Source: Methanobrevibacter gottschalkii DSM 11977
GTDB lineage: Archaea > Methanobacteriota > Methanobacteria > Methanobacteriales > Methanobacteriaceae
Direction: 5' to 3'
Assembly: GCF_003814835.1 (NCBI RefSeq)
Contig: NZ_RKRG01000002.1
Span: 310,001-374,000, forward strand
Length of the DNA: 64,000 nucleotides
Of this stretch, positions 2 through 35,031 are shown piece by piece (positions within the stretch are counted from its first letter, which is position 1; each line of letters starts with the position of its first letter). A program made the translations under genes and the position numbers. A model generated the notes under the pieces. That model made no database searches, had not been told where the DNA came from, and saw nothing but the letters and a program-made list of their open reading frames with translations.

Positions 2-475
2 TACAAAGGCGATGAACAAGACATTCCTCATGATGAAATTTATAATGCATGTTCAATTAGTATGCCCGTTGATCAAAAAAGGAATATGATGAATGCTTCT
101 AGTAATTATCGTATTATTTCAGCAATAATTGATGCAATACGCACCGGTGAGAATCAAAAAATATTTTCTCCAGGAGCGTTTGGTCATATTGGAGGATATC
201 CTGTAATTATTGGTTATAAAGAGGGTAAAATTTCTGCTTGGATTGATGAATCTGTATTTACATTTGATGAAATGGATAAAGCAAATCGTAAATCCCTTGC
301 TTTAGATGGTGTGGAAGATATTCTTGATGCAACCTTAATCTACACTGATGATTTAATTAAAAAAGTTGAAAAAGCATTTGGTGAAGATTTACCGAAAAAA
401 GTAAAATATGATGAAATTGAAAAAACCGCTGAATTTCTCATTGAAAAGATAATCACTCCACAATTAAATAAATAG
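2..475 (+). CDS. Unrecognised protein, 3' part only (cut by window edge)
   Basis: The reading frame is open from base 2, so the gene starts upstream of the window and only about the last 157 residues are visible. An internal ATG at 62 is not a convincing start, since the frame continues before it with no stop. The visible part is soluble, with a glycine-rich stretch (FGHIGGYPVII) and a charged helical C-terminus. I do not recognise the family; an NAD(P)-linked dehydrogenase C-terminal domain is possible but unproven. It lies 11 bp upstream of phosphonopyruvate decarboxylase and is probably co-transcribed with it, so a role in phosphonate or surface-polymer synthesis is inferred from context only. 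Confidence 0.6.
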   Translation, partial: YKGDEQDIPHDEIYNACSISMPVDQKRNMMNASSNYRIISAIIDAIRTGENQKIFSPGAFGHIGGYPVIIGYKEGKISAWIDESVFTFDEMDKANRKSLALDGVEDILDATLIYTDDLIKKVEKAFGEDLPKKVKYDEIEKTAEFLIEKIITPQLNK

Positions 476-2648: not shown

Positions 2649-4136
2649 ATGTCAGATAAAAACGAATGGGGCAGCAACATGTCATTCATCCTTGCAATGA
2701 TAGGTTCTGCTGTTGGACTTGGAAACATTTGGAGATATCCTTACGTACTTTATTCTAACGGTGGGGGTGCATTTTACATCCCTTATATTGTAGCAATTCT
2801 CTTAATGGGAATTCCTTTCTTGATCTTGGAATATGGTGTTGGATATAATTATAAATCTTCATTTGCAAAAGCAATCAGAAAGATTAATGCCAAATGGGAG
2901 TATTTAGGCTGGTTTTTACCAGTTGCTGTATTTATGATTATGATTTATTACTCTGCTATTTTAGGCTGGGATGGAATCTACATGGTTTTGAGTTTCTTTA
3001 AAGGTTGGGGAGCAGATCCGAACACTTACTTTGCAACTACTCTCTTACAATCTAGTGATTCCATGAATGGATTATTCACTTTCATTCCGGTTATTGCTAT
3101 TGCAATGCTTGCAGGCTGGGTAATTATTTGGTTTATTTCACATAAAGACCTTGAATCTGGTTTAGGTAAGGTATCAAAAATATTGGTGCCGTTATTGTTC
3201 TTAATCATGGTTGTTATTGTAGTATTTTCACTTACATTGCCTGGATCTTCAATTGGTCTTGCTGAGCTATTTAATCCGGACTGGTCACTTTTAACTCACT
3301 TTGAAATATGGATGGCTGCATTCGGACAGATTGTATTTTCATTAAGTTTGGGCATGTCTATTGCATTTACATATGCAAGTTATACAAAAGACGGTTCCGA
3401 TTTAATTACAAATACAATTTCTATTGCACTTGCAAATTCCATATTTGAAAATTTTGCAGCATTAGGAGTATTTTCAATTTTAGGTTATATGTCCCTGCAA
3501 TCCGGAACTGCAGTTGCAGACCTTGTAACTCAAGGTACTGGTCTTGTATTTATAGCATATCCAACTGTATTTAATGTATTGGGTGATTGGGCATTAGTAC
3601 TTGGACCGTTATTCTTTTTAACAGTTTATCTTGCCGGTCTTACAAGTATTTTATCTACAATTGAACCATTGTCTTTTTCAATTCAAAACAAATTCGGTCT
3701 AACAAGATCCAGGACAATGACAATATTGTGTGTTGTTGGTGCTGTTGTATCGATGCTTTATGCAACTGCTTACGGCGGATCCTTACTTGGATATGTGGAT
3801 ACATTTATTAACCAGATAGCATTATTAATCGGGGTTGTAGCTGAATGTATTGTATTTGCTTGGATATTTGAAGCTGAAAAATTAATTGATTTCTTAAATG
3901 CGAGAAGTAAAACAATTAAACTTGGTAAATGGTGGTTGGGTATTGTTAAATACATATTACCTATTTTTGTAACTGTTATTTGGATTGGTGGTATGGTTGA
4001 TGTAGTCAACAATGGTACAATGGATCAATTAATATTTACAATAATTTCAGCCGCTGTTTTATTAATTGCTACTTTGATCTTTACTGTTCTTCCTGCTAAA
4101 ACTCCTGAATGGGATAATGCTGAAGACAGAGTATAG
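2649..4136 (+). CDS. Sodium-dependent transporter, NSS (SNF) family
   Basis: Predicted LeuT-fold sodium symporter of the neurotransmitter:sodium symporter family, importing amino acids or similar small substrates across the cytoplasmic membrane. The 495-residue protein has about 11-12 hydrophobic segments. The first contains the signature GSAVGLGNIWRYPYV (19-33), the unwound TM1 that binds sodium and substrate in characterised members. The hydrophilic C-terminus ends shortly after the last helix. It is a single-gene unit: a 185-bp AT-rich region precedes it and a hairpin terminator overlaps its stop codon. The substrate cannot be read from sequence. Confidence 0.92.
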   Translation: MSDKNEWGSNMSFILAMIGSAVGLGNIWRYPYVLYSNGGGAFYIPYIVAILLMGIPFLILEYGVGYNYKSSFAKAIRKINAKWEYLGWFLPVAVFMIMIYYSAILGWDGIYMVLSFFKGWGADPNTYFATTLLQSSDSMNGLFTFIPVIAIAMLAGWVIIWFISHKDLESGLGKVSKILVPLLFLIMVVIVVFSLTLPGSSIGLAELFNPDWSLLTHFEIWMAAFGQIVFSLSLGMSIAFTYASYTKDGSDLITNTISIALANSIFENFAALGVFSILGYMSLQSGTAVADLVTQGTGLVFIAYPTVFNVLGDWALVLGPLFFLTVYLAGLTSILSTIEPLSFSIQNKFGLTRSRTMTILCVVGAVVSMLYATAYGGSLLGYVDTFINQIALLIGVVAECIVFAWIFEAEKLIDFLNARSKTIKLGKWWLGIVKYILPIFVTVIWIGGMVDVVNNGTMDQLIFTIISAAVLLIATLIFTVLPAKTPEWDNAEDRV

Positions 4137-20902: not shown

Positions 20903-21000
20903 ATTTCATTTGCTTGAAATATATTTCTAATTTTCATATTGATTTTCAGTTAACTGAAAATAATATTAATTTTAGTATTTACTTTTCAATATACTGAAAA
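20903..21000 (+). promoter_or_regulatory. Three 18-bp inverted repeats at exact 40-bp spacing upstream of ATPase A1
   Basis: ATTTCATTTGCTTGAAAT (20903-20920), TTTTCAGTTAACTGAAAA (20943-20960, a perfect palindrome) and TTTTCAATATACTGAAAA (20983-21000) share the pattern WTTTCA-N6-TGAAAW and start exactly 40 bp apart. A TATA-like TTTATATT (21002-21009) follows the third. They look like operator or iteron sites for a dimeric DNA-binding protein. Confidence 0.8.
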
Positions 21001-21053
21001 CTTTATATTACAGTTATGATAAATTAATAATTATAAAAAGAAGTGTGGTTTTA

Positions 21054-22256
21054 ATGATCATCCAAAGAAAAGATTATATTGATAAAATTAATCCTTTTGT
21101 AAATAAACATATTATTAAAGTTTTAATAGGAGCAAGACGTTCCGGCAAGTCAACCATATTAAAACAAATTATTGATTCATTAATAAAACAAGGAACCCCA
21201 AAGGAGAATATTGTTTGGATGAACTTTGAATTAAGTGATTATTTTGAAATGGATAATATTAAAAAGCTTGAAGAGTTCATATCTAATAAAACTGAAAATA
21301 TTGATGGTAAAATTTATCTATTTTTTGATGAGATACAGATTGTTCCCCAATGGGAAAAATTAATCAATTCTTACTTTGCAAAAGAAAATTATGACATATA
21401 TATTACCGGATCAAACTCAAAATTATTGTCCGGCGAGTTTGCTACATATTTATCCGGCCGCTATGTGGAATTAAACATATATCCATTTTCTTTTAGGGAA
21501 TATCTTGAGTACTATGAAATTACTTCTGATTTCAAATCTCATTTTTACAGATATTTGGAAGATGGGGGTATGCCTTCAACATTTGACTACAGGGGTGATG
21601 ATAAAAGATTAATTCTGATTGATTTATACAATTCTATTGTCCTTAAAGATATAATTCAAAGAAATAATGTTAAAAATGTTGACTTGTTGGATAGAATTAT
21701 GAGATTTGTAATGTATAACATTAGCCAGCCCTTTTCCGCAAATAAAATTCATAAAAGACTAAAGCAAGATATGGTAAACTTATCTGTAAATACAATTTAC
21801 AATTATCTGAAATTCTTTGAAAATGCATGCCTGATTTATCAGGTAAAGCGCGAAGATTTACAGGGTAAAAGAATATTAAAACATGATGAAAAATATTATA
21901 TATGTGATTTGGGTTTTAGACAGGCAATAATAGGAAACAATCAAAGGGATATCACTCGTGCAATCGAAAATATTGTTTATTTGGAACTTTTAAGAAGAGG
22001 ATATGAAATCACCATCGGTAAAGTTGATAACTTGGAAGTAGATTTTGTATGCAAAAAACAAAATAAACTCATTTATATTCAAGTTTCTTATTTATTGGCA
22101 AGTGAAGAAACTATTGAAAGGGAATTTAAACCGTTAAATAATATTTCAGATAATTATCCGAAATACGTAATAACCATGGATGATGCGGACATGTCTCATG
22201 ATGGAATCATTCATTTGAATTTAATTGATTTTTTAAGGGATAATGAAGTGATTTAA
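21054..22256 (+). CDS. AAA_14/DUF4143-type ATPase (type A, copy 1)
   Basis: A 400-residue predicted ATPase. The Walker A loop is GARRSGKST (26-34) and Walker B is LFFDEIQ, followed by YITGSNSK, a sensor-like segment. The middle contains a winged-helix-like region (about 210-265), and the C-terminal third is the DUF4143 domain, which resembles a PD-(D/E)XK fold: GYEITIGKVDNLEVDF then IYIQVS, where the usual ExK is replaced by QVS. ATG 21054 is chosen over GTG 21045, which belongs to the ribosome binding region. Its closest relative in the window is the type A gene at 31978-33216. The cellular role is unknown. Three inverted repeats precede it and a DUF1848 remnant follows. Confidence 0.85.
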   Translation: MIIQRKDYIDKINPFVNKHIIKVLIGARRSGKSTILKQIIDSLIKQGTPKENIVWMNFELSDYFEMDNIKKLEEFISNKTENIDGKIYLFFDEIQIVPQWEKLINSYFAKENYDIYITGSNSKLLSGEFATYLSGRYVELNIYPFSFREYLEYYEITSDFKSHFYRYLEDGGMPSTFDYRGDDKRLILIDLYNSIVLKDIIQRNNVKNVDLLDRIMRFVMYNISQPFSANKIHKRLKQDMVNLSVNTIYNYLKFFENACLIYQVKREDLQGKRILKHDEKYYICDLGFRQAIIGNNQRDITRAIENIVYLELLRRGYEITIGKVDNLEVDFVCKKQNKLIYIQVSYLLASEETIEREFKPLNNISDNYPKYVITMDDADMSHDGIIHLNLIDFLRDNEVI

Positions 22257-22324
22257 CATCTGGAATTCATATTCTTTTTTAGGGAGTTTATAAACTCATT
22301 TTGTTTTTTAAATAATTTTTTGAA

Positions 22325-22410
22325 GACAAGTAATATTTGTTTTTATATGAAACAAAATTCACTAAAAATTAGCGGATAATTCCGCTACTTTTTACTATAA
22401 TTTGTTCGTA
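22325..22410. repeat. Intergenic repeat with AGCGGA hairpin, copy 1
   Basis: The 36-bp core at 22358-22393 matches 27673-27708 in 35 of 36 positions. It contains a 7-bp hairpin TAGCGGA-TAAT-TCCGCTA flanked by A5 and T5. Similarity extends left to AAGTAATATTTGTT (22328-22341). It sits between ATPase A1 and a DUF1848 remnant. Confidence 0.75.
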
Positions 22411-22443
22411 ATATATCAAACAAAAATCAAAAAAGCAGTAGCT

Positions 22444-22592
22444 AATTTCAATACTGTTATGCAAACGCCAACATGGAGCCGGTTAAAAAGAATCAAAAAC
22501 TGCATAATCTGGATTAGCCATTGATTATTGGGGAGGTTGTAAAAGAGGTTAGGGAACCTATCTACATTGACACTCAAACTAGGTTGTTTTAA
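22444..22592 (+). pseudogene. DUF1848 3'-end remnant R1
   Basis: Aligns with the last 160 bases or so of the intact DUF1848 gene. Read in frame it gives YCYANANMEPVKKNQKLHN, an internal stop, then a tail ending RLF and TAA at 22590-22592. It lacks five residues present in the intact gene near GDVKEGDVV. Its stop codon shares TTAA with the stop of the convergent ATPase B1. The upstream body of the gene is absent. Confidence 0.85.
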
Positions 22593-23779
22593 ATGCTTCT
22601 AAATGGGTATATTCCATTTTTTTCATAACTGTTCTTAAGCCAATATCCAAATATCGGGTCTGTAATTTGATATTTGTCATTTGCATATTCAATTAAATCA
22701 TAGTCCAGAAGGCGATTTAAGGGTCTGTTTAGTGATCCGCTAGTTACTTTGAGGGAATTTGCCACTTCTATTCTCTTTTTTGGATTTTCAAGTAGTGAAA
22801 TTATGATTTTCTGTTCCTGGAATGTTAATTTGGACCACATGTATACGAAATGGATTGCAAGATAATCAATTGAATCCTTGAATAATTCGCTTATGTTATT
22901 TTCACTTAATGTTAGGTTTTCTGGAAGATATTTTGCAAATATGTTGATGTAATAAGGAATTCCACGTGTGCATTTGTAAAATCTTTCAAATCCTCCATGG
23001 TCTAGTTGGATGTTTCTTCTCATTGATTTGATATAGTTTTCAGTGGTCTTTTTTGAAAATGGTTGAACTTCAATTGTCAGCATCCTCCCTCCAAATGCCC
23101 CTTTATTTCCATTTAAGTCATTTATTAAACTGTCTTTCAGGCTCATGCTTCCGCAAAAGATGTATGCAACATTCTTTTGTGTTTGAATGAAACTGCGCAT
23201 ATACCATAAAAATCCATTCAATTCATCTCCCAAATCTTTGATTAATTGGATTTCATCAATGAATATGAAAACTCCTTTTATCTTATCATTATTGTCTTCA
23301 TAAATTTTCTGAGGCAGTTCCATTACAAATTCCGCCAATCTCTCATAATTGTCTTCACTTTCAAAGATTGGGATGGGGATGTGTTCGTATGATAAGAGTT
23401 TATCTATTTTGAAATTTTTTGTTTTAAAATATTTTTCTATTTGATTGCTGATTGTTTTTAAGCCGAATTCTTTGGATGATCTGATGATTGAGTCGTAGAT
23501 TATTTTTATCATGCTTGCCCTTGTGAGATTTTTCTGTTGATATGCACTGCTTCTGGATAAATCGATATCTACAACTAAATATTCCCTTTCAAATTTATTT
23601 CTGATTTTTTTGATGAGGGCTGTTTTTCCAACTCCTCTAATTCCTGTTAATAGTATTGTGGGTGCGGAGTTGAATTCAGTGCTGATCAATAAATTTGATA
23701 ATATGTTGATTTCATCTCTTCGATTGAAAAATTGTGTTTCGGTTAAATTTGTATCTGTTATGCTTGCAATTTCATCCAT
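22589..23779 (-). CDS. Archaeal ATPase_2-type ATPase (type B, copy 1)
   Basis: A 396-residue predicted STAND/AAA-like ATPase. The Walker A motif is GIRGVGKT (46-53), Walker B is FIFIDEIQL, and FCGSMSL forms a sensor-like strand. A conserved GAFGGRM segment and RGIPYYIN follow. The C-terminal part (about 310-385) is a winged-helix-like domain (VANSLKVTSGSLNRPLNRLL), suggesting DNA binding; no nuclease domain is seen. It pairs with the type B gene at 33844-35031, sharing GAFGGRM, the winged helix and the ending N/K-G-x-YP. AT-rich inverted repeats lie upstream. Its stop codon overlaps the DUF1848 remnant R1. Confidence 0.82.
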   Translation of the reverse strand: MDEIASITDTNLTETQFFNRRDEINILSNLLISTEFNSAPTILLTGIRGVGKTALIKKIRNKFEREYLVVDIDLSRSSAYQQKNLTRASMIKIIYDSIIRSSKEFGLKTISNQIEKYFKTKNFKIDKLLSYEHIPIPIFESEDNYERLAEFVMELPQKIYEDNNDKIKGVFIFIDEIQLIKDLGDELNGFLWYMRSFIQTQKNVAYIFCGSMSLKDSLINDLNGNKGAFGGRMLTIEVQPFSKKTTENYIKSMRRNIQLDHGGFERFYKCTRGIPYYINIFAKYLPENLTLSENNISELFKDSIDYLAIHFVYMWSKLTFQEQKIIISLLENPKKRIEVANSLKVTSGSLNRPLNRLLDYDLIEYANDKYQITDPIFGYWLKNSYEKNGIYPFRSI

Positions 23780-23793
23780 CTGTTTCCCTCAAG

Positions 23794-23887
23794 TAATGTG
23801 TTTTTCATTATATAATATTATGTATTGTATTTTGAATTATGTAATTAACTTTTCATTATATTTTGTAATATAATGTATTTTTCATTA
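23794..23887 (-). promoter_or_regulatory. Three TAATG-N7-CATTA-type sites upstream of ATPase B1
   Basis: TAATGTGTTTTTCATTA (23794-23810), TAATTAACTTTTCATTA (23842-23858) and TAATGTATTTTTCATTA (23871-23887) are 17-bp imperfect inverted repeats starting 48 and 29 bp apart. A 22-bp inverted repeat (23854-23875) overlaps the last two. They cover the likely promoter of the leftward ATPase. Confidence 0.55.
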
Positions 23888-24012
23888 TATATAATCCTGA
23901 TTATTTAAAATACGGATTCAATTAAGTATGGTGTTGATGATAATTCCACATTAATTATAAATTTATTGACCAACATAAGTTATTAACAACATATTACAAC
24001 TGAGTGGTTTCA

Positions 24013-24187
24013 ATGAAAATTATATCATGGAATGTTAATGGATTTGAATCCATTATTGGAAAAGGATTGTTATAAGAGATAATAGCTCAATACACTGGCA
24101 TATTATGTTTACAGGAAGTCAAGTCAACTTAAATACCGGAAATTGAAAATTACATTTCTTACAATTATCCTGCATTTAGCTATTGAA
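24013..24187 (+). pseudogene. Exonuclease III (xth) N-terminal remnant
   Basis: Begins MKIISWNVNGFES, the characteristic exonuclease III N-terminus, then an in-frame stop, then GILCLQEVKS (containing the metal-binding Glu), another stop and a decayed tail. The rest of the gene is missing. A further short open stretch (near 24188-24241, SATRRMYKKLG) is not identified. It lies beside an intact gene of the same nuclease superfamily at 25199. Confidence 0.75.
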
Positions 24188-24268
24188 TCCAACTCAGCAA
24201 CCAGAAGAATGTATAAGAAATTAGGAAGAAGCAAGACCTAAAGTTGACTTTATTTAAAGGAGATTAAC

Positions 24269-25186
24269 ATGCCAATATATAATATTGATGGAGAAACATT
24301 AACTCCAATTAAACAGGTAAAATTTAAAAACGAAAGGGAATTACAGATTTTAACCGAAAAAAACCTTGAAGAACTATTCGGTTTAAAATTTATTGCAACT
24401 GAATTTCAGGTTGACAATTTAAGAATAGATACATTAGCATTCAATGAAGAAACTAATTCTTTTGTAATTATTGAATATAAGAATGTAAAAAATTATAGTG
24501 TTATCGACCAAGGATATAGCTATTTATCCCTATTGCTTAATAACAAAGCAGAATTTGTTTTAAAGTATAATCTTGTTTGTAATGCTGCATTATCTAAAGA
24601 TGAGTTTGATTTTTCACAAACCAATGTAATGTTTATCTCTCCAAGCTATACTACTTATCAATTAAGGTCTGTTGAATTTTCTGATATAGCTTTTGAATTA
24701 TGGAAAGTAGTTAAATATTCTAATGGTACTGTTTTATTTGATAAAGTTAATAATACTGATACTCAAGCTTCAATAAAACAAATTACCAAAGAAAACACTA
24801 GTAAAGATAAGGTCAATAAGGAAATTAAAAAATACACGGAAGAAGATACTTTAATGAACAAATCCGATGACATTAAATCTTTGTATGATAATTTAAAGGA
24901 ATTAATTTTATCCAATTATGATGATATTGAAATTAACCATTGGAAATATTATGTTGCAATTAAAGTGAATAATAAAATGGTTGCTACTGTAAGTGTTTTA
25001 TCAAAATCTTTGAAAACATGGATTAATTTAAAAGAAACTGAATTAAGAGATTCCGAAGGCAAAGTTAGAAATGTGTCTAATATTGGACATCATGGTGTAG
25101 GTGATTATGAGTATGTAATCTCTTCAGAAGATGATTTATATTATTTCAATAAGTTATTTAAACAATCTTACGATGAAAAAATTTAA
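24269..25186 (+). CDS. PD-(D/E)XK nuclease-like protein with DUF5655 C-terminal domain
   Basis: A 305-residue protein. Residues about 15-160 look like a restriction-endonuclease fold: RIDTLAFNE supplies the Asp and VIIEYKN the E-x-K catalytic signature, with a following helix containing DQGYSYLSLLL. A charged linker (about 165-200) leads to a C-terminal region (about 200-300) resembling DUF5655. AAAGGAG upstream supports ATG 24269. An endonuclease/exonuclease/phosphatase protein starts 12 bp downstream, so the two probably form an operon. A DNA-processing or defence role is plausible but inferred. Confidence 0.72.
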   Translation: MPIYNIDGETLTPIKQVKFKNERELQILTEKNLEELFGLKFIATEFQVDNLRIDTLAFNEETNSFVIIEYKNVKNYSVIDQGYSYLSLLLNNKAEFVLKYNLVCNAALSKDEFDFSQTNVMFISPSYTTYQLRSVEFSDIAFELWKVVKYSNGTVLFDKVNNTDTQASIKQITKENTSKDKVNKEIKKYTEEDTLMNKSDDIKSLYDNLKELILSNYDDIEINHWKYYVAIKVNNKMVATVSVLSKSLKTWINLKETELRDSEGKVRNVSNIGHHGVGDYEYVISSEDDLYYFNKLFKQSYDEKI

Positions 25187-25198
25187 GTAGGCCTTAAT

Positions 25199-25894
25199 AT
25201 GAAAATTGTTACTTGGAATGCCAACGGTAAATTCAGTGAAAAGTTTCCAGCTATTCTGGAAAAAGATGCTGATATTTATGTAATTCAGGAATGTGAAAAT
25301 CCTGAAATAATTAATTTAAAAGAATATAGTGAATTTTCTTCCAATTATTATTGGGTTGGTGAAAACCAATATTATGGTCTTGGAATATTTGCTAAAGATA
25401 ATGTAAAATTAGAATTGGTAGATTTGGATGATAAGGGACTCAGATATTTCATACCATTTACTGTTAATGATGATTTTAATCTTTTAGGTGTTTGGACCAA
25501 TCCTGATATGGATGGCACTAAAACAATTTATTATCCTAAAGAAATAACCAAATATTACGAAGAACACAAGGATTCAGGATTCTTCAATGAAGACATGATT
25601 ATCTGTGGAGATTTTAATTGTGATGTAAGATTAAAAGGCACTCATGCCAAGAATGTTTATGAAGTAATTGAAAAATTGTCTGAATGTGGTCTTGTAGACA
25701 TATATCACCATTTAACTGGTGAAAATGAAGGTGAGGAAACTACGCCAACTTTTTACATGTATAGGCACTTGGATAAACCTTATCACTTGGATCATATATT
25801 TTCGTCATCAGATAAAGTTAAAGCTTTGGAAATTGGTGATGCAGACAAATGGCTACAGTTAAGTGATCATGTACCGTTAATCTTTAAAATTTAA
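25199..25894 (+). CDS. Endonuclease/exonuclease/phosphatase family protein
   Basis: A 231-residue protein of the exonuclease III/DNase I fold. Motifs in order are KIVTWNANGKF (N-terminal Asn), VIQECE (metal-binding Glu, about 38), ICGDFNCDVR (Asp/Asn pair, about 140) and the C-terminal SDHVPL (catalytic His). It is compact and lacks a signal peptide. A GGCC-rich ribosome binding region precedes ATG 25199. Its gene partner is the nuclease-like DUF5655 protein upstream. Substrate (DNA, RNA or phosphoester) is not predictable. It is a different copy from the broken exonuclease III remnant 1.2 kb upstream. Confidence 0.85.
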   Translation: MKIVTWNANGKFSEKFPAILEKDADIYVIQECENPEIINLKEYSEFSSNYYWVGENQYYGLGIFAKDNVKLELVDLDDKGLRYFIPFTVNDDFNLLGVWTNPDMDGTKTIYYPKEITKYYEEHKDSGFFNEDMIICGDFNCDVRLKGTHAKNVYEVIEKLSECGLVDIYHHLTGENEGEETTPTFYMYRHLDKPYHLDHIFSSSDKVKALEIGDADKWLQLSDHVPLIFKI

Positions 25895-26072
25895 AAAATA
25901 ACCTTGTTGAAACCATGTTAAAATTTAAGTGAATATCGGTACTATTTGCTTTTTTGGTCAAATAATTTCTTTTTATTCTTTGTTTTTTTCTTCGTAAAAT
26001 TACTTTTTTTACTAATTCAATATATATTCGGTAATTTAGTCTTTAATTAGGAATTAATTTAAAATACTATTA

Positions 26073-26154
26073 TTCAAATATTTGAACAGTCTTTTATATA
26101 TAATTATTTAAATATTTGAATAATTATTTATATTGGTTAATTCAAATATTTGAA
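26073..26154 (+). promoter_or_regulatory. Three TTCAAATATTTGAA palindromes at exact 34-bp spacing upstream of ATPase C1
   Basis: TTCAAATATTTGAA at 26073-26086 and 26141-26154 and TTTAAATATTTGAA at 26107-26120 start exactly 34 bp apart. TATA-like TTTTATATAT and TTTATATT lie between them, so binding would overlap the promoter. The first ATG of the ATPase is 24 bp beyond the last site. Confidence 0.8.
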
Positions 26155-26177
26155 TATGAAGAAATCAGGGGATTGCC

Positions 26178-27629
26178 ATGTTTGAAAAGGAAGAATTAAT
26201 CACAAATTTCATTAAGGAAGAACTGACTGATGTTCCCAATATCTTGAACAAAGAGTTATCTAAAAACAATGAAAAATTCAACTCCAGAGAGGAACTGGAT
26301 GAGATAAAAGGATACATGGACACTTTTTTAAATGAAGATACATCAAATAAGATTATAGTTTTGCCGGGCCTCAGGGGCGTTGGCAAAACAACGCTGGTTC
26401 TGCAGGCATATGAATATCTCCTAAAAGAAAGGGACATTCCTCCCAGTAATGTATTATACATTTCCTTTGACGATTTAAATGATCTGGTTGAATGCAGTAT
26501 AAGGCAGATGGTTGAAATATACCTGAAAAACATATTTCATGCAAACATAAGGAATTTGGATGAAAAGGTTTTCATATTCGTCGACGAATCACAAACCGAT
26601 AAAAATTGGGCTTTATCCGGTAAGGTCATATATGACAAATCTTATAACATTTTCATGATATTTACCGGTTCATCTGCTCTTCATCTGGAACGCAGCGATG
26701 AGCTTGCAAGAAGGATGCGCAAAAAATCCGTAACTCCACTAAACTACACACAGCATCTGAAATTAAAGTATGGCATTGATGTGGGAAGTCTATCAGATGA
26801 TTTAAGAGAACTGGTATTCACTGGAAATATTGACAATGCGGCAGCCTCTGAATTTGAGGCAAATAACTTATTGACCAATTGTTTGGATTATTCTTCAACA
26901 GATTGGGACGAGTATTATAAATTCGGCGGTTTTCCAATATTATTTGACAAAAAGTCCCATAGGGAAATCTGTGAGGACTTGGTTGAAATCACAGAAAGGG
27001 TCATTACAAAAGACATGCCGCAGATAAAAGAGATTTCCTCTGAAAATCAATCCAATGCAAAACGTATATTGAGATATCTCGCCCTCCAACAGCCGGGTGA
27101 GTTAACACAGGCGAATCTGGCAAATTATCTGAAAACATCAACCGCAAATGTAAACAAAATATTGGATTTGCTTGAAAAAACTCATCTGATTTTCCATTGC
27201 GAACCATATGGAGGTTCAGCCAAAAGGGTTAAAAAATCATGGAAATATTATTTTGCAGCACCCAGCATCAGACACGCCCTGTCAGCTAAAATAGGAAACC
27301 CATTATTGGGAACTGATGATTATGAAGGTCTGCTTCTGGAAAATCTTGTAGCGTCAAATTTGTTTAACTTATCCAATAGGCAATTCACAAATTTCACAGT
27401 TTATTATGATGCAGACAAAAAAAGAAATGTTGATTTTCTGATTCATAAGGATTCAGAAAACATCATCCCAATTGAGGTGGGACGTGGAAAGAAAAAGAAA
27501 CTGCAGATCAAACATGCCATTAACAGATATGATTGTGAATATGGCATAGTGGTTGCAAATAACTATTCTTCTCTAAAAAAAGATGATGATGTAATTTATA
27601 TATCTCCAAAAACATTTTCATTTTTATAG
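26178..27629 (+). CDS. AAA-type ATPase with C-terminal nuclease-like domain (type C, copy 1)
   Basis: A 483-residue predicted ATPase. An N-terminal extension of about 60 residues precedes Walker A GLRGVGKTT (64-72). Walker B is FIFVDESQ, and FTGSSALHL is the sensor-like strand. A winged-helix-like region spans about 295-350 (ANLANYLKTSTANVNKILDLLE). The C-terminal part has KRNVDFLIH and IPIEVGRG, resembling a PD-(D/E)XK core with the lysine altered. GGGG lies 9 bp before ATG 26178. Its paralogue at 29096-30535 has the same layout and nearly the same C-terminus. Three palindromes at 34-bp spacing precede it. Function unknown. Confidence 0.85.
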   Translation: MFEKEELITNFIKEELTDVPNILNKELSKNNEKFNSREELDEIKGYMDTFLNEDTSNKIIVLPGLRGVGKTTLVLQAYEYLLKERDIPPSNVLYISFDDLNDLVECSIRQMVEIYLKNIFHANIRNLDEKVFIFVDESQTDKNWALSGKVIYDKSYNIFMIFTGSSALHLERSDELARRMRKKSVTPLNYTQHLKLKYGIDVGSLSDDLRELVFTGNIDNAAASEFEANNLLTNCLDYSSTDWDEYYKFGGFPILFDKKSHREICEDLVEITERVITKDMPQIKEISSENQSNAKRILRYLALQQPGELTQANLANYLKTSTANVNKILDLLEKTHLIFHCEPYGGSAKRVKKSWKYYFAAPSIRHALSAKIGNPLLGTDDYEGLLLENLVASNLFNLSNRQFTNFTVYYDADKKRNVDFLIHKDSENIIPIEVGRGKKKKLQIKHAINRYDCEYGIVVANNYSSLKKDDDVIYISPKTFSFL

Positions 27630-27638
27630 CGAGACAGG

Positions 27639-27724
27639 GATAAGTAATATTTGTTCTTTAGATATAAGAGATTTCACTAAAAATTAGCGGATAATTCCAC
27701 TACTTTTTGTTCATTATTTGTTAA
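27639..27724. repeat. Intergenic repeat with AGCGGA hairpin, copy 2
   Basis: Begins just after ATPase C1. Its core 27673-27708 matches the copy at 22358-22393 with one mismatch, which weakens the hairpin (TCCACTA in place of TCCGCTA). The left block AAGTAATATTTGTT (27642-27655) is also shared. No DUF1848 remnant follows this copy. Confidence 0.75.
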
Positions 27725-27915
27725 TAATGGAAGTGTCTGTCAAAAGTAATTTTTTTGATGCGAATTTTTCTTTGTTTTGAATGGAAGTACTTTTAATCAG
27801 TTTCAAAAATTAATTCTGGATTTTTGGAGGACACTCGAGAATGGATGAAAAATATAAAATAAATTTAGTGAAAAGTATAAAATGAAATGGGTGAAAAATT
27901 TAAAAAGTGATTGTG
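27725..27915. other. Gene-free stretch with a weak inverted repeat
   Basis: GAAGTGTCTGTCAAAA (27730-27745) and TTTTGGAGGACACTCG (27822-27837) are partly complementary and about 75 bp apart, as might remain from a small mobile element. No coding signal is seen. Confidence 0.3.
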
Positions 27916-28868
27916 ATGAAAAAATATTTGCCAAGATATACTGACCGTGAACTGAAGGAATCATTGGAATAAGCAGGTAGGATAAAAAGAATCGTAATGC
28001 GTCCGATGAGTTTATATGAAAGCTGTGAATCCACAGGTGAAATTTCATTAATGGAATTATTCAATAATCATGATTTAAACATTGATGGTGTAACATCAAA
28101 TTTGACAATACCCGATTTGATATTTGCCGCCTGAGAGGGGAATGACCCGATTCCCTAAACAAAAAAACCAAAAAACAGCAATTGGCAATTGTATCCGATT
28201 ACATAGGCATAATATGCAATAGTGATGTTTCAGAAGTAGATGGTGTTAAACGAAACCCCCAAAGGGTAAAAGCAATCTTAAAATCATATGCTCGGAACAT
28301 ATCAGCACTGCCAACTAAAAAAACACTCATGAAAGATGTAAGAACTGAACACGGAGATATCTCTGCACCAACATATAATTTATACATCAATGCCCTTGAA
28401 AGGTTATATGTTATTCAGGACATTCCTGCATGGTCGCCAAATATCAGATCTGCAAACACAATCAGAAAATCCCACAAAAAAGAATTCACTGACCCATCAA
28501 TAGCAGTGGCAAGCCTTAACTTGACACCAGAAAAAATTGCTGAAAGACTTCGAAACCTTTGGATTCATATTTGAAAACCTCTGTATATGTGACCTGCTGG
28601 TTTATTCAAGTTCAGTCAACGGAGAAGTGTTATATTACAATGATGACAGCGGTCTTGAAGCAGATTGTGTAATATATCTAAATGATGGAAGATATGCATT
28701 GATAGAATTTAAATTGGGCAGTCGTGAAATTGAAAAGGGAGCGGAAAACTTACTTAAACTAAAAAATTAGGGGATGATGATTTAAAGAAATATAATAAAG
28801 TTTTTTCTAATTTGCGCACTGGTGGAATAATTGTTATGCATAAACCTGGAAATTTTGGAGTTTCATAG
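27916..28868 (+). pseudogene. Broken AAA_14/DUF4143 ATPase of a fourth type (type D)
   Basis: A decayed gene. It starts MKKYLPRYTDRELKESLE and stop, matching the start of the bacterial-type DUF4143 ATPases, then jumps past the P-loop to RIVMRPMSLYESCESTG. After two more stops, a long frame (28182-28574) carries the middle and DUF4143 region. A frameshift near 28560 leads to a second frame (28537-28770) with LEADCVIYLNDG and ALIEFKLGS, a PD-(D/E)XK-like pattern. A further shift continues to TAG 28868. The Walker A region is deleted, so it cannot be an active ATPase. Unlike types A-C it resembles widely distributed bacterial genes, suggesting transfer followed by decay. Confidence 0.8.
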
Positions 28869-29095
28869 ATCCAATTATTCTTGAAACCGAAATATACTGT
28901 TTTTATCAAGATAAATTAATAATTATTCCTTGCCGTTCATTTAAACATAATACATCATCAAAAACAATCCTTTCACTAATATTATGGTCTATTATTTGAT
29001 CATATGGATTAATTTTGTGTTTGCATTTTATGAACAAGTATTTATATAATAATGTCCATAAATTATAAACAAACCAATGTAATGGAGGATTAATG

Positions 29096-30535
29096 ATGGA
29101 AGACGTAATCTATAACTATCTTATAAAACAGTTATCTGAAGTACCTATGATTCTAAACAGGAGATTATCATATAAAAACATCAAGTTCAATAACAAAAAC
29201 GAATTTGATAAGCTCAGATTAATGATTGACAGTTTTTTAGATGGGGAATCTGAAGAAAGATACTTTGTACTTCCGGGAATTCGTGGGGTTGGAAAAACAA
29301 CAATATTATACCAATGCTATGAGTACCTGTTAAAGGAAAAAAACTTCAATTCAAGTGATCTGTTATACATTTCATGTGAAACAACTAATTTCGCAGGGGA
29401 AACAGATATCAAAAAAATAATAGAAATTTATTTAGATGAAATTCACAATACGTCCCCCGCACTTTTGGATAGGCCTGTTTTCATTTTCATAGATGAAGCG
29501 CACTTTGACATGAATTGGGCAATGAACGGAAAAACCCTTTATGATGAATCCCCATATATTTTCCTGATATTGGCAGGTTCATCATCACTTCATCTAAATT
29601 ATAATTCTGATGCTGCCAGAAGGCTCAATATACTGCCGGTCATGCCATTAAACTATTCCCAGCACTTAAGCTTAAAGTACAACTACCAAACAGATATCGG
29701 AAATGACTTAATCGATTTGATATTCACAGGAAACATTGAAGCAGCACAGGAAAAGGAACTAAAAATCCAAAAGGACTTAATAAGCTTAAATAGTTATCCA
29801 TTAAATGACTGGAACATTTATTTAAACTATGGCGGATTTCCAGCAACATTCAACATCAAATTCGAGGACATAATTGTATCTAAACTATGGACAATAATAT
29901 CCAAAGTAATAACTGTCGACATGGCGAATGTATTCAATTTAAACAAGAACAATCAAAACCTGGCTTATAAAACATTGGTGTATCTGGCATCACAAAAACC
30001 GGGAGAAATATCACATGACAAACTGTCAAACTACTTGGATTGCGGCAAAACAACAATAAACAATATTATCAACACATTGGAAAAGACACAATTGATATTT
30101 CACAGTGAAGCTTATGGTGGAGCTTCCAAAAAAGTTAAAAAACCATGGAAATATAATCTTGCAACACCAAGTATCAGAAACTGCATAAACATAAAATTCG
30201 GAAACAGCGCAGGATCAAAAAGTGAATATGAAGGAATATTACTGGAAAACCAAATTGCATCTAATCTATTTAACCTAAACAACAATAACACATCATTCGA
30301 CTTCAATGTTTATTATGATTCGCAAAAGGGAGGCGTAGACTTTATCGTTAAAAAATTATTCGGCAATGCAATACCGATAGAATCAGGGATAGGCAGCAAA
30401 ACAAGAAGACAAATAAAAAAAGCAATGAATAAATATGATGCAGATTATGGAATTGTGGTTTCAAATAAAACAGATTTCATAGAAAAAGAAGATGATGTGA
30501 TATTCATACCTCCAAAAACATTCACATTTTTATAA
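29096..30535 (+). CDS. AAA-type ATPase with C-terminal nuclease-like domain (type C, copy 2)
   Basis: Paralogue of the gene at 26178. Walker A is GIRGVGKTT (about 63-71), Walker B FIFIDEAHF and the sensor-like strand LAGSSSLHL. A winged-helix-like region (LSNYLDCGKTTINNIINTLE) lies near 300-340. The C-terminal domain has GGVDFIVKK and IPIESGIG, a degenerate PD-(D/E)XK-like core. The two proteins end almost identically (IPPKTFTFL versus ISPKTFSFL). GGAGGA at 29084-29089 fits ATG 29096 best; an adjacent ATG at 29093 would add one residue. Unlike copy 1, its upstream region shows no clear evenly spaced palindromes. Confidence 0.83.
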   Translation: MEDVIYNYLIKQLSEVPMILNRRLSYKNIKFNNKNEFDKLRLMIDSFLDGESEERYFVLPGIRGVGKTTILYQCYEYLLKEKNFNSSDLLYISCETTNFAGETDIKKIIEIYLDEIHNTSPALLDRPVFIFIDEAHFDMNWAMNGKTLYDESPYIFLILAGSSSLHLNYNSDAARRLNILPVMPLNYSQHLSLKYNYQTDIGNDLIDLIFTGNIEAAQEKELKIQKDLISLNSYPLNDWNIYLNYGGFPATFNIKFEDIIVSKLWTIISKVITVDMANVFNLNKNNQNLAYKTLVYLASQKPGEISHDKLSNYLDCGKTTINNIINTLEKTQLIFHSEAYGGASKKVKKPWKYNLATPSIRNCINIKFGNSAGSKSEYEGILLENQIASNLFNLNNNNTSFDFNVYYDSQKGGVDFIVKKLFGNAIPIESGIGSKTRRQIKKAMNKYDADYGIVVSNKTDFIEKEDDVIFIPPKTFTFL

Positions 30536-30725
30536 AAACTGCTGTAGGAATTCTCATTTTCATTGAATCTGAGTTGATTGGTAGGTAAATTATGGCTTTG
30601 AGTTTTGTTTATTTATTTGATGGATCTGAGATTCTGCTTATTTATCAAATATTCTTTTTATTGCTTTGAATATTGTCATTCTTTAAAAATGTATTGAATA
30701 TTCATTTAACACAATTTTTGAGTAT

Positions 30726-31181
30726 TTAAATGTTATATTTAATGAATTGTATAGTACGCTTCTGTTCACTTAGATTTTTTAATTCTATTTCTTCAAAAAG
30801 TCCAAATCCGTTATCTAAACTGATTACATAATCCAAATTATAATGATTATATATTATGACTTGTGAGCAATCTATAAAACTTACCTTAAAGCTATTTTGA
30901 TTGTATTTTTCAAAAACGGATAATACATTGTCATTGTACATGCTGATTTCACTTTCATGAATGATGGTGAAATTGTCCTTTAGATAATTGTAAACTGTTC
31001 TAACCAACCCAATGTCTTTTGTTTTCTGCCCAATAATTGTCATTACTTCAGCCAATATTCCGTCTGTGATGTAGCAGTCATTATTAAGCATGTCCTTGTT
31101 TTCAATGGCCTTTTGGTGAAGCCCATCATTTTTCCTAAACAATGCAATGATGAATGATGAATCGATTAACAGTTTGCTCAT
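30726..31181 (-). CDS. PIN-domain toxin (VapC-type)
   Basis: A 151-residue PIN-domain protein, the usual toxin of VapBC systems, cutting RNA at a metal centre. The acidic residues are visible: Asp7 in LLIDSSF, Glu45 in ILAEV, Asp104 in FIDCS and Asp123 in ISLDNG. The start overlaps the antitoxin gene by 4 bp, the classic translational coupling. It lies in the ATPase island between type C and type A ATPases; such pairs often stabilise mobile regions. Its RNA target is unknown. Confidence 0.85.
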   Translation of the reverse strand: MSKLLIDSSFIIALFRKNDGLHQKAIENKDMLNNDCYITDGILAEVMTIIGQKTKDIGLVRTVYNYLKDNFTIIHESEISMYNDNVLSVFEKYNQNSFKVSFIDCSQVIIYNHYNLDYVISLDNGFGLFEEIELKNLSEQKRTIQFIKYNI

Positions 31182-31420
31182 TTGTATAGACTCCTTTTTA
31201 GTTCAACTGCATTTCTTGGATCATCATCTTCAATGATTCCGATTACATCTTCTAAACTTACTTTTTTTCTTGGTTTTATTATGATTTCATTTTCTTCATT
31301 GATGAACCAGTCAATAACTGTGTCTTTACTGTTCAGTTCTTTAAATTGACTGCGAATGACCTTGGGTATGGCCAGTTGATAGTTTTTATATAATGTTGTT
31401 GTAGCTAGTATATTATCCAT
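31178..31420 (-). CDS. AbrB-type antitoxin (VapB-type)
   Basis: An 80-residue SpoVT/AbrB-like protein. The swapped-hairpin DNA-binding part is N-terminal (YKNYQLAIPKVIRSQF and a strand ending IIIKPRK); the acidic C-terminal tail (EDVIGIIEDDDP) probably binds and blocks the toxin. It precedes and overlaps the PIN toxin gene by 4 bp. A 19-bp near-perfect palindrome about 36 bp upstream of its start is a likely operator for autoregulation. Confidence 0.82.
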   Translation of the reverse strand: MDNILATTTLYKNYQLAIPKVIRSQFKELNSKDTVIDWFINEENEIIIKPRKKVSLEDVIGIIEDDDPRNAVELKRSLYK

Positions 31421-31455
31421 GATTTTCAGACTCCTGTATTATTGTTGATTAATTA

Positions 31456-31474
31456 TATATTTTCAGAAAATATA
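31456..31474 (-). promoter_or_regulatory. Putative operator palindrome of the VapBC pair
   Basis: TATATTTTCAGAAAATATA is a 19-bp inverted repeat with one central base, located 36 bp upstream of the antitoxin start and overlapping TATA-like sequence. Antitoxins of this class usually repress their own operon. Confidence 0.6.
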
Positions 31475-31813
31475 AAATTATCTGAAATTTAAGCTCTTTC
31501 AAAAACTTGTGTGATTTGAATTTTGATTAGTTTTTGAGTCATGAAATTTTTTTATTGATATTTTTTCTTATTTTTTAATTTAAATGTAGTAAAATTAATA
31601 TATTAAGTGAAAATTATATATTAATAGGGTTAAATATAAAATAAAAGATTCATATAATGGTATGAAATCAAAAGAACTTAAACATTCGATTTTACCCAAA
31701 TTTTTCTGGATTCTGTCAATCTTATGTTTTTTCCCCATTTGGTTATGAAAATATTGAAGATAATCTTATTTTTGAGAATGGAATTGCTATTTGTTCATAG
31801 TTATCGAACAAAT
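31475..31813. other. AT-rich intergenic stretch without a supported gene
   Basis: Contains only short frames. A 28-codon frame near 31662 (MKSKELKHS) ends quickly and a following frame is equally short, so this may be a decayed gene, but I cannot identify it. No clear promoter is seen. Confidence 0.35.
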
Positions 31814-31980
31814 TTCACTAAAAGTAGTACATAATTCAATATGTATTATGCAAATGCCAACATGAAGCTGGTCAAAAGGAACCAGAAGTTGCATAGTCCT
31901 GATTTGCCATTGCTGATTGGTGATGTTGTAAAAGAGGTTAGTGAACCCGCTATATTGACACACAACAAAAGATTATTTTA
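31814..31980 (+). pseudogene. DUF1848 3'-end remnant R2 with degenerate hairpin repeat
   Basis: Bases 31814-31832 match the start of the AGCGGA repeat (TTCACTAAAA then ATAATTC) but the hairpin is lost. From about 31835 the sequence matches the end of the DUF1848 gene: YANANMKLVKRNQKLH, then LPLLIGDVVKEVSEP. Compensating one-base changes near 31950-31970 break and restore the frame, which ends RLF plus TAA (31979-31981). As in R1 the KEGDV residues are absent. The TAA shares TTAA with the stop of the convergent ATPase A2. Confidence 0.85.
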
Positions 31981-33216
31981 AAATATTTCATCATGGTTAA
32001 AGTTTTTCAAAAAATCAATTATATTCATGTGTTTTATGCCATTTTGAGGTTGGACAGTTCTATCCATTGATAATACATATTTTGGATAATTATCTTTAAT
32101 CATTAATAATGGCCTAAACTCCCTTTCAATTGTTTCATCATTTTCCAGTAGATATGTAACTTGTATGTAGATTTTTTGGTTATTTTTTTTACATATGAAG
32201 TCTATTTCATAGTCATTTACTTTTCCTATTGTTATTTTATATCCATGTCGCTTTAATTCGATGAATATTATGTTTTCTAATATGTGGTCTATATTTCTTT
32301 GCTTTTCCTCAAGTTGTGATTTATAAAATCCAGTGTCGAGTAAATAATATTTTTCAGAGCCTATAATTTCTTTTTTTCCAGCAATATCTTCTTTTGAGGC
32401 TTTTGCAATTAGGTATGCATTTTCAAGATATTCTAAGTAATTGTAGATAGTTGGTTTTGTAATTCTAAGTTTTTCATGTTTTAAGTATTTGTATACTGCA
32501 TTTGCTGATATTAAATTTCCTGTGTTTTCAATTATATATTTTACAATTCTATTGAACAATCCAACATTTCTAATTTCATATCTTTCTACTATGTCATTTA
32601 GGATTATGGAAGAGTATATTCCATTTAACACTAGCTCTTTGTCATGTTGGGAGGATATGGTGAGAGGTATTCCGCCATATTTTTGGTATTCTTCGAAAAA
32701 GTTTTCCAAATCACTATTTAGTTCATTTGTTATTGAAGGGGGGTGATTTAATTCTTGTTTATAATCTAAAAATTCATTAAATGAAAATGGATATAGTTCT
32801 ATATTTACGTATCTTCCAGTTAATAATGTTGCAAATTCTGCAGACATTAATTTTGAGTTGGATCCTGTAATGTATATGTCGGTGTTTTCTAGTTTGTAGT
32901 AGCTGTTGATACTTACTTCCCATTCTTTAACATTTTGTATTTCATCAAAGAATAAATAAACTTTGTTTTCATGGGATTCTATGAACGGAACTACAATTTC
33001 ATCTAGTTGTTCTCGTGTTTTTATGTGATTGTATGTGGGTAACTCTAAATCTATTAGTAGTATATCTTCATCTTTGGTTCCTCTTTTTTTAAGTTCATGG
33101 ATAATTAATTTGAATAAATAGGATTTGCCGCAACGTCTCATGCCCGTTATTATTTTTATTAAATTTTTGCCCATAAAATTGTAAATTTTTTCTAGATATA
33201 ATTCTCTTTTTACCAT
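31978..33216 (-). CDS. AAA_14/DUF4143-type ATPase (type A, copy 2)
   Basis: A 412-residue paralogue of the gene at 21054. Walker A is GMRRCGKS, Walker B LFFDEIQN, followed by YITGSNSKLMSAEFA. The middle winged-helix-like region contains ANAVYKYLKHEKLRITKPTIYNY. The C-terminal DUF4143 domain has GYKITIGKVNDYEIDF and IYIQVT, again QVT in place of ExK. The start is ATG 33216, with GAGGG a few bases upstream; a GTG 15 bases earlier lies in the first upstream repeat. It is oriented opposite to copy 1. Three repeats at 40-bp spacing lie upstream and DUF1848 remnant R2 lies downstream. Confidence 0.85.
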   Translation of the reverse strand: MVKRELYLEKIYNFMGKNLIKIITGMRRCGKSYLFKLIIHELKKRGTKDEDILLIDLELPTYNHIKTREQLDEIVVPFIESHENKVYLFFDEIQNVKEWEVSINSYYKLENTDIYITGSNSKLMSAEFATLLTGRYVNIELYPFSFNEFLDYKQELNHPPSITNELNSDLENFFEEYQKYGGIPLTISSQHDKELVLNGIYSSIILNDIVERYEIRNVGLFNRIVKYIIENTGNLISANAVYKYLKHEKLRITKPTIYNYLEYLENAYLIAKASKEDIAGKKEIIGSEKYYLLDTGFYKSQLEEKQRNIDHILENIIFIELKRHGYKITIGKVNDYEIDFICKKNNQKIYIQVTYLLENDETIEREFRPLLMIKDNYPKYVLSMDRTVQPQNGIKHMNIIDFLKNFNHDEIF

Positions 33217-33231
33217 ATTGTCCCTCAACAC

Positions 33232-33331
33232 ATAGTTTTATATAAAATACTATTTTTACTTAATTAGATAAATAGTTTTATATAGAATACTTTTTATACT
33301 TACTTTATTAAATAGTTTTGTATAAAATAAA
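33232..33331 (-). promoter_or_regulatory. Three TATA-containing repeats at exact 40-bp spacing upstream of ATPase A2
   Basis: ATAGTTTTATATAAAATACT (33232-33251), ATAGTTTTATATAGAATACT (33272-33291) and ATAGTTTTGTATAAAATAAA (33312-33331) start exactly 40 bp apart. Each is an imperfect palindrome centred on TTTTATATAAAA, so it could act as TATA element and operator at once. The nearest copy lies 16 bp from the ATPase start. Confidence 0.8.
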
Positions 33332-33469
33332 ATATTTTTTTCCAGTTAACTAATATTAAAGAAACAAATTAATTATTAATTTAAAATTAAAGATATATAA
33401 TACTATGTTTAAGCAAAAAACAGTATTATGGTCAGTATAAATAAAAATAAAGATTAATCAATATTTATT

Positions 33470-33667
33470 TCTGTTGGATGATATCGGGACATATAACTGA
33501 TTATCATAGATTCAGATATTTCTATGCAGATTACAGCTTGAAACTTGTTGATGAATCAAAAGTTGCATCATAATGATTGTCCTTACTGACTGGCAATGTT
33601 AAGGTAATGGTGTTGCTAAGGAAGTTTCAGAACTTGATATATTGATGCTCAGTAAAAATTATTTTAA
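33470..33667 (+). pseudogene. DUF1848 3'-end remnant R3
   Basis: The longest and most decayed remnant. GATATCGGGACATATAACTG (33479-33498) matches the intact gene at the codons for DIGAYN. The following bases align with HGCKYCYAN, but both Cys codons have become Phe codons. The tail retains matches to QKLH, GDVK, VVKEV, EP and TQ before ATTTTAA at 33661-33667. Several shifts and stops are present. It lies between the type A and type B ATPases, repeating the order seen around R1. Confidence 0.75.
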
Positions 33668-33682
33668 TTATTTTGTATGTAT

Positions 33683-33784
33683 TTGGTAACAGTTTGAAGA
33701 GTTAAACTTTACTTCATCTGTTTGAAGTATAAACTTTTACTTCATTCATTTGAAGTTACAGCAGTAACTTTAACAATATGAAGT
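33683..33784 (+). promoter_or_regulatory. Three ACTTCA-N6-TGAAGT repeats plus a half-site at exact 28-bp spacing upstream of ATPase B2
   Basis: ACTTCATCTGTTTGAAGT (33711-33728), ACTTCATTCATTTGAAGT (33739-33756) and ACTTTAACAATATGAAGT (33767-33784) start exactly 28 bp apart. A fourth right half-site TTTGAAGA (33693-33700) fits the same 28-bp register. TATA-like sequence follows at about 33786-33815, so they lie just upstream of the promoter. Confidence 0.8.
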
Positions 33785-33843
33785 ACTTTAAATTATTAAA
33801 GTATATGTGCTTTAAAATACATAGTTTAAGATAGGTGTTTTAA

Positions 33844-35031
33844 ATGAGTATTGTTCCATTGCATATTCCAATTAATGAAATCGACAGATATTTCTATAAC
33901 CGGACTGAAGATATTAAAAAAATTGAGTATTATCTAAATTCATTGGAAATCGGAATATCTCAATCATTATTAATAAGGGGAGTTAGAGGTGTTGGAAAAA
34001 CTTTTTTACTTCAAAAATTAAAACAGGACTCAAAAAAGAATTTTCTGGTTTCATACATTGATATTTCAAGAATTGTGGGCATTGATGATACGCAGTTAAC
34101 TGCACAATCAGTTTTATTGGAATTATTGGACGAAATGAACAATACAATCTATGATAAGATACATGACGGTAAAAAAGTAACTTTTCTTTTGAAAAAATTA
34201 ATTGACAAATTAAAAATTAAAGATTTCAGCTTTTCAAAAGGCATTCATATGGCTGAAATACCAATACCAGCAACCGAAGACAATTACAAAAAAATCAGTA
34301 AATTTGTAATGGAATATCCTCAAAATGTTGTTGAAAGTATTGATGGCATTAATGGATTCATAATTATAATTGATGAATTCCAGATGCTTAAAAAGTTAAA
34401 AAATCCAGAATCCTTTTTTTGGTTAATGAGGAGTTATAGTCAATTCCAATCAAATGTCAGTTATGTGATGAGCGGATCAATCTCACAAACATCAGATGCA
34501 ATTGAAATGTTGAATGGAGCAACTGGAGCATTTGGTGGAAGGATGATGCAAATAAATATAGATCCTTTCACAAAGCATGAAACCAAATCTTATTTCAATG
34601 ACAGATTTCCAGAAATAAAATTCACTGACGATGGTTTTAATCGTTTTTATGAGTATACAAAAGGAATTCCAATGTATATAAATAGCTTTTACAATGCATT
34701 ATCATCCCATGAAACATATGATGAAAAATCAATAGATTATATTTTCCTCAATAACATGGACCAAATTCTTGTAATGTGGATTAGGATATGGGGTACTTTA
34801 AACAAATATGAAAAAAAGATAATATGCGCCATGTTAAACAAAGAGAATATTTCCTGGTCTAAACTGGAAAGGAGTTTAGACATGTCTCCAGCTACTTTAA
34901 CCAAGTATATTAAAACTCTACAGGATAAGGGAATCATAAAATATCATGATGGAAATTATAATTTTGAAGATTTAATGTTAAAAACATGGCTGAATAATGA
35001 AAAAGAGAGGACTGGTGTTTATCCTCAATAG
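33844..35031 (+). CDS. Archaeal ATPase_2-type ATPase (type B, copy 2)
   Basis: A 395-residue paralogue of the type B gene at 22589. Walker A is GVRGVGKT (about 46-53), Walker B IIIIDEFQM, and VMSGSIS the sensor-like strand. It shares GAFGGRM and KGIPMYIN with copy 1. The C-terminal winged-helix-like region is LERSLDMSPATLTKYIKTLQDKG (near 345-367). AGGTG lies 9 bp before ATG 33844. It is in the opposite orientation to copy 1 and is the last gene of the island; cobQ follows convergently 17 bp away. Confidence 0.83.
   Translation: MSIVPLHIPINEIDRYFYNRTEDIKKIEYYLNSLEIGISQSLLIRGVRGVGKTFLLQKLKQDSKKNFLVSYIDISRIVGIDDTQLTAQSVLLELLDEMNNTIYDKIHDGKKVTFLLKKLIDKLKIKDFSFSKGIHMAEIPIPATEDNYKKISKFVMEYPQNVVESIDGINGFIIIIDEFQMLKKLKNPESFFWLMRSYSQFQSNVSYVMSGSISQTSDAIEMLNGATGAFGGRMMQINIDPFTKHETKSYFNDRFPEIKFTDDGFNRFYEYTKGIPMYINSFYNALSSHETYDEKSIDYIFLNNMDQILVMWIRIWGTLNKYEKKIICAMLNKENISWSKLERSLDMSPATLTKYIKTLQDKGIIKYHDGNYNFEDLMLKTWLNNEKERTGVYPQ

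Follow-up and report, generated by a model that had tools for sequence, protein, structure and literature searches.

Phased site arrays in front of ATPase genes have a pitch that follows ATPase type and may act as operators of the adjoining gene

In Orc1/Cdc6 with its origin recognition boxes, in iteron initiators and in ParR/parC, an ATPase or initiator gene adjoins repeated binding sites, and the regulator MalT binds arrays of boxes. Judged by analogy, STAND regulators such as IniR and MalT are the nearest working analogues of the ATPases described here: like ATPase B2, MalT and the mycobacterial IniR combine an ATPase and a DNA-binding domain in one chain. They differ in that MalT and IniR activate other operons through a LuxR-type HTH and ligand-binding domains, whereas the dyads of the window (the whole stretch of 64,000 nucleotides analyzed) precede the gene for the ATPase itself. 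IniR binds the iniBAC promoter, and prediction likens its ATPase domain to SSO1545 (PMC5760070). SSO1545 (2FNA) and PAB2304 (2QEN), archaeal proteins of the ATPase_2 or MNS type with an AAA+ core and a C-terminal winged helix, are the nearest to B2 in both sequence and fold, and no DNA site for either was found in the open-access papers searched. Foldseek ranked these two first among solved folds for B2, followed by Orc1/Cdc6 (E about 1e-9, TM 0.42-0.50), with CED-4 and Avs3 further down. The Orc1/Cdc6 fold is common to other families, and B2 falls far below the Orc1/Cdc6 cut-offs (23.4 bits versus 181.3 for TIGR02928, and 26.5 versus 311 for NF001623). Unlike Orc1/Cdc6, iteron and ParR/parC systems, the arrays reported here occur as several differing arrays per chromosome, and their geometry is locked to the promoter in several bacterial loci of type C. 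No description of arrays before DUF4143 or ATPase_2 genes was found in the open-access papers searched.

ATPase B2 (395 aa; 33844-35031, + strand) consists of an ATPase_2 (PF01637) AAA+ domain and a C-terminal winged helix, as assigned from Pfam, AlphaFold and Foldseek. Its promoter contains four dyads, none assigned a strand: ACTTCATCTGTTTGAAGT at 33711-33728, ACTTCATTCATTTGAAGT 28 bp further on at 33739-33756, ACTTTAACAATATGAAGT after another 28 bp at 33767-33784, with one mismatch in its left arm, and ACTTTAAATTATTAAAGT at 33785-33802, which follows at a step of 18 bp, abuts site 3 and keeps its place in two orthologues (L036, L089). The complete step series is therefore 28, 28, 18. The sequence-only reading of this DNA had placed ACTTCA-N6-TGAAGT-type sites from 33711, 33739 and 33767, and all three were found at those positions. 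It had also proposed a half-site in the same register, which we recover as the right half-site TGAAGA, ending a degenerate, strandless site at 33683-33700, 28 bp before site 1; the fourth site at 33785 was absent from its listing.

Sets of three sites at equal spacing were given a dyad-phase score, which treats them as a dyad-symmetric motif, at periods of 20-60. B2 reached 21.3; across 5,120 dinucleotide-shuffled versions of the regions upstream of ATPase genes, the maximum was 15.3. The earlier reading would have been refuted had phased repeats proved frequent in AT-rich DNA, and this is not the case, with 0 of 5,120 shuffles attaining the B2 score. The computed motif is confined to the B2 promoter: the exact motif of site 1 is unique to that promoter, with both occurrences of exact ACTTCA-N6-TGAAGT in the 1.88-Mb genome lying there, and matches with one mismatch occur across the genome at control level. 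The absence of the exact motif elsewhere in the genome speaks against a regulon.

Arrays were also present in front of the other ATPase genes of the window. ATPase A1 (AAA_14 + DUF4143 by Pfam, 483 aa; 26178-27629, + strand) has TTCAAATATTTGAA-type dyads at 26072, 26106 and 26140 (array 26071-26156, no strand; steps 34, 34), and two of the three occurrences of exact TTCAAATATTTGAA in the genome are at A1. ATPase C1 (AAA_14 + DUF4143 by Pfam, PDC-S01 by PADLOC models, 403 aa; 21045-22256, + strand) has dyads at 20903, 20943 and 20983 (array 20903-21000, no strand; steps 40, 40). Phased repeats at both genes had been proposed from the sequence and are borne out. An exactly phased array had likewise been claimed for ATPase A2 (AAA_14 + DUF4143 by Pfam, 480 aa; 29093-30535, + strand), and this claim holds in part: two good sites stand 35 bp apart (29018-29036 and 29053-29071, together 29018-29071, no strand), but the array is weak in the window and a third site is seen only in the orthologues (L123, L124 and L126, 93% identical, three sites each). 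Two further arrays had been missed. One belongs to ATPase C2 (AAA_14 + DUF4143, 417 aa; 31978-33231, - strand), with dyads at 33312-33333, 33272-33293 and 33232-33253 (array 33232-33333, - strand; steps 40, 40), and the other to ATPase B1 (ATPase_2 by Pfam, 396 aa; 22589-23779, - strand), with dyads at 23871-23887, 23842-23858, 23823-23839 and 23794-23810 (array 23794-23887, - strand; steps 29, 19, 29). A scan of the entire 64 kb at periods 23, 34, 35, 40 and 41 with a score threshold of >16 returned only the A1, C1 and C2 arrays.

These six ATPase genes of three types, together with a remnant of a fourth type, D, lie within 15 kb (20903-35031) and form an ATPase island amid ordinary metabolic genes. 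The remnant lies between A1 and A2 (28221-28716), where a D-type DUF4143 ATPase gene is broken into two pieces in different frames, one with an internal stop; this suggests turnover of such ATPase genes.

Close relatives of the window's proteins occur in Methanobrevibacter assemblies, which makes that genus the probable source. We computed the pitch of the arrays by family; genes of types A, C and D were sampled across some 25 genomes within the genus. The best period was 34 or 35 in 23/32 A-type promoters and 39-41 in 29/40 C-type promoters, and all 19 promoters of D-type genes (DUF4143, about 430 aa) gave 23 or its double, the D arrays being direct tandem repeats of 23 bp in about 5-6 copies. 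In shuffles any one period came out in about 2.6% of cases, and no comparable peak emerged among 82 control promoters from the same genome; high scores in some of these controls came from G+C-rich coding or tRNA stretches under the AT-rich background, again without a comparable period peak. After collapse to clusters below 70% identity, the expected spacing remained best in 11 of 15 A clusters (p 8e-12), 13 of 20 C clusters (p 2e-10) and all six D clusters (p 2e-8).

Type B follows a different rule. A single equal period was tried and rejected, as the scan gave mixed periods (45-47 and 28/29), and an alternating lattice fits instead: motif tracing showed steps that alternate between 18/19 and 27-29 bp. 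We then left both steps free and scanned 124 B promoters from the archaeal family, in which 75 genomes contained B-type genes. The lattice appeared in 98 of these promoters, compared with 5.5% of shuffles, and at cluster level it held for 35 of 45 (p 2e-35). The short and the long step of type B differ in length by 9-10 bp, nearly a full turn of the helix. By simple arithmetic the pitches of the other types are not whole helical turns, so that successive sites would rotate round the helix at a constant angle. All ATPase types are carried by one genome, and the pitches group according to the type of protein and not the genome; the computed site letters, in turn, differ between paralogues (TATTCT..GAATA, ACTTCA..TGAAGT, TAATGGAATTTCCATTA and others). 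The proposal that ATPases and sites form a coherent system with type-specific spacing is thus upheld by the cluster tests for A, B, C and D, with the correction that the pitch of B is not a uniform 28 but 18/19 alternating with 27-29.

The ATPases themselves have a domain that could read these sites. B2 and B1 match Pfam ATPase_2 at 56.3 and 61.3 bits, above the gathering cut-off of 33.2 bits. The AlphaFold model of B2 (pLDDT 84) has its C-terminal winged helix at residues 321-374 with a recognition helix at 349-361, and the C2 model also has a winged helix (about 223-282, recognition helix 259-271); MarR-like wHTH matches were found. Among type C proteins, site similarity correlates more strongly with the wHTH than with any other domain (partial correlation 0.18, all others at most 0.06), and columns 255, 260 and 263 of the recognition helix are among the top six for covariation with the site, while segment 297-311 scores equal to the best helix window. 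Among type B proteins, helix window 349-360 has a partial correlation with the site of 0.24 (permutation p=0.0005), and segment 161-172 of the AAA domain scores slightly above the recognition helix; within subfamilies, covariation of helix and site gave p=0.02 for B1 and p=0.057 for B2. As a signal drawn from alignments, this covariation supports direct reading of the site by the ATPase without proving it, since it is moderate and partly confounded by ancestry.

We searched 84,980 species genomes for matches to the C alignment and obtained 80 named loci, mostly bacterial. Selection of the bacterial sample rested on similarity to that alignment, and metagenome bins make up many of the assemblies. 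The best period was 40 or 41 in 20 of the 67 bacterial C homologues with enough upstream DNA (p=2e-10), including Phascolarctobacterium (TTTATCAGTTATAACTGATAAA-type sites), Treponema, Succinivibrio, Oscillospiraceae and Pasteurellaceae (41); in about two thirds of the homologues the C pitch was not the best period. Relatives of type C were also found on 233 plasmids of a plasmid collection, 175 of them from Acinetobacter, and viral contigs contained few relatives. Period 39 or 40 was recovered in 6/10 mobile-element copies examined, and no clear 40-bp pitch was seen in the one Moraxella plasmid and the one Acinetobacter phage contig looked at.

Several bacterial C arrays place their last dyad exactly between a TTG... 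-35 box and a TATAAT-like -10 box with a 17-bp spacer, as in one locus (L195) where TTGAAT-17-TATAAT surrounds it. For 7 of the 19 bacterial C arrays, the highest-scoring sigma-70-like promoter in the whole region has its center no more than 3 bp from that of the last dyad (p=3e-6), and most of these seven share one offset. Conservation of type C across domains, the dyad in the -35/-10 spacer of several bacterial C promoters and the winged helix of the protein are computed results. A last dyad in the spacer occupies the position of a repressor operator, which makes autorepression the leading reading. A TATA box at a fixed position relative to the B arrays was sought in archaea and not found, and repression there is consequently extrapolated from bacteria.

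We propose that the arrays are self-addressed operators of the downstream ATPase, through which it represses its own gene, and put the probability of this at roughly two in three. Each dyad would be occupied by a pair of winged-helix domains from the ATPase whose gene follows directly, and neighboring ATPases would touch, such that the architecture of the family sets the pitch (18/19 and 27-29 for B, 34/35 for A, 40/41 for C and 23 for D). The recognition helix would set the letters of the site and could diverge freely from one paralogue to another. Once assembled on the array, the ATPase would cover the promoter and repress its own gene, with release by a change of nucleotide state or by a signal. 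Binding, dimers, cooperative assembly, repression and the signal are all inferred. Against an operator stands the fact that a simple autorepressor needs no 3-6 evenly pitched sites.

The dyads could instead be operators at which host regulators other than the ATPases bind, such as MarR-like proteins. MarR-type dyads are 17-20 bp long and the array sites look like them, with no binding data to go by. This reading would nevertheless have to explain why pitch tracks the subfamily of the ATPase from genome to genome and, in type C, between domains, and one regulator per paralogue would be needed, as the letters differ between paralogues in a single genome. No dedicated regulator lies beside the genes examined in the window and in the plasmid and phage copies, and the ATPases have a winged helix of their own whose recognition helix covaries with the site; we regard foreign regulators as quite unlikely. 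Several sites at regular pitch would also suit a nucleation, partition or replication element comparable to iterons, a parC centromere or the ORB boxes of Orc1/Cdc6. In that case the ATPase would assemble there to carry out a DNA transaction, and autoregulation would be a secondary effect. The fold, nearest to SSO1545/PAB2304 and then to DNA-bound Orc1/Cdc6, the iteron-like 5-6 tandem 23-bp direct repeats of type D and the many C-type copies on plasmids all point this way. Such an element is nonetheless hard to reconcile with several different arrays per chromosome, with the lack of a second gene (motor, adaptor or relaxase) adjoining the arrays in the window, and with several bacterial C arrays being locked to the promoter spacer of the gene itself, and it too seems unlikely.

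A role for the repeats as RNA, as hairpin repeats comparable to those of type III toxin-antitoxin loci, is conceivable in that they lie upstream of a gene and the dyads could fold as hairpins. Yet the bacterial C arrays with spacer geometry are upstream of the -10 box and would remain untranscribed from that promoter, the A1 dyads have no loop, and the D repeats are direct, not inverted. Ratios of G-T over A-C mismatches (1.30 and 1.61) are only slightly above those given by composition (1.16 and 1.35), and no Rfam match was obtained, so that we consider an RNA function very improbable. The DNA is AT-rich and palindromes of an AT-rich kind are common, which would leave room for chance; this explanation is refuted by the shuffles, the control promoters and the cluster-collapsed tests (p 1e-8 to 1e-35) and can be practically dismissed.

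The self-addressed operators proposed here bear on a phage-defence candidate listed in PADLOC. Passages of PMC12988326 describe PDC-S01, an ATPase fused to PD-(D/E)XK, as ranking fourth in frequency among the defences of prokaryotes and state that most PDCs still await experimental validation; arrays or autoregulation of PDC-S01 are not described in these passages. The PDC-S01 models of PADLOC matched C1, C2, A1, A2 and the D-type ATPase strongly and over their full length (E 7e-158, 3e-148, 5e-38, 6e-28 and 1e-63, respectively), and B2 and B1 weakly and in part (E 2e-6 and 5e-9; 24.9 bits over residues 39-124 for B2). On the strength of these profile matches, types A, C and D belong to PDC-S01 and type B does not, and any defence role of the ATPases is inferred. 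A fixed-pitch array gives each PDC-S01 or related ATPase_2 protein a predicted DNA target and regulatory output, with the pitch as a physical ruler for ATPase stacking, and the arrays allow subfamilies to be sorted and new members to be discovered from sequence only. More speculatively, a cross-domain class of ATPases including PDC-S01 may build helical assemblies under the control of ATP, using as a private ruler the DNA before their own gene, with the pitch of the ruler given by the geometry of the assembly, and the assembly serving as both repressor and stored sensor, released or rebuilt in infection. We offer this extension as possible and rather doubtful.

In the PD-(D/E)XK-like domain, the ExK motif appears to differ between types among the proteins compared (C2, A1, A2 and the D-type L013). 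It looks altered in C (IYIQV, with Q357-V358 invariant in 33 proteins) and in A (IPIE[VS]G) and is kept in D (IEFK), and types A and C may, to judge from the altered motif, be without nuclease activity. On one short contig (L058), the D-type genes are surrounded by three arrays of 23-bp tandem repeats whose units differ from array to array (1274-1319, 2626-2772 and 3295-3353); the last of these units is nearly identical to the D array unit of a locus in another genome (L063).
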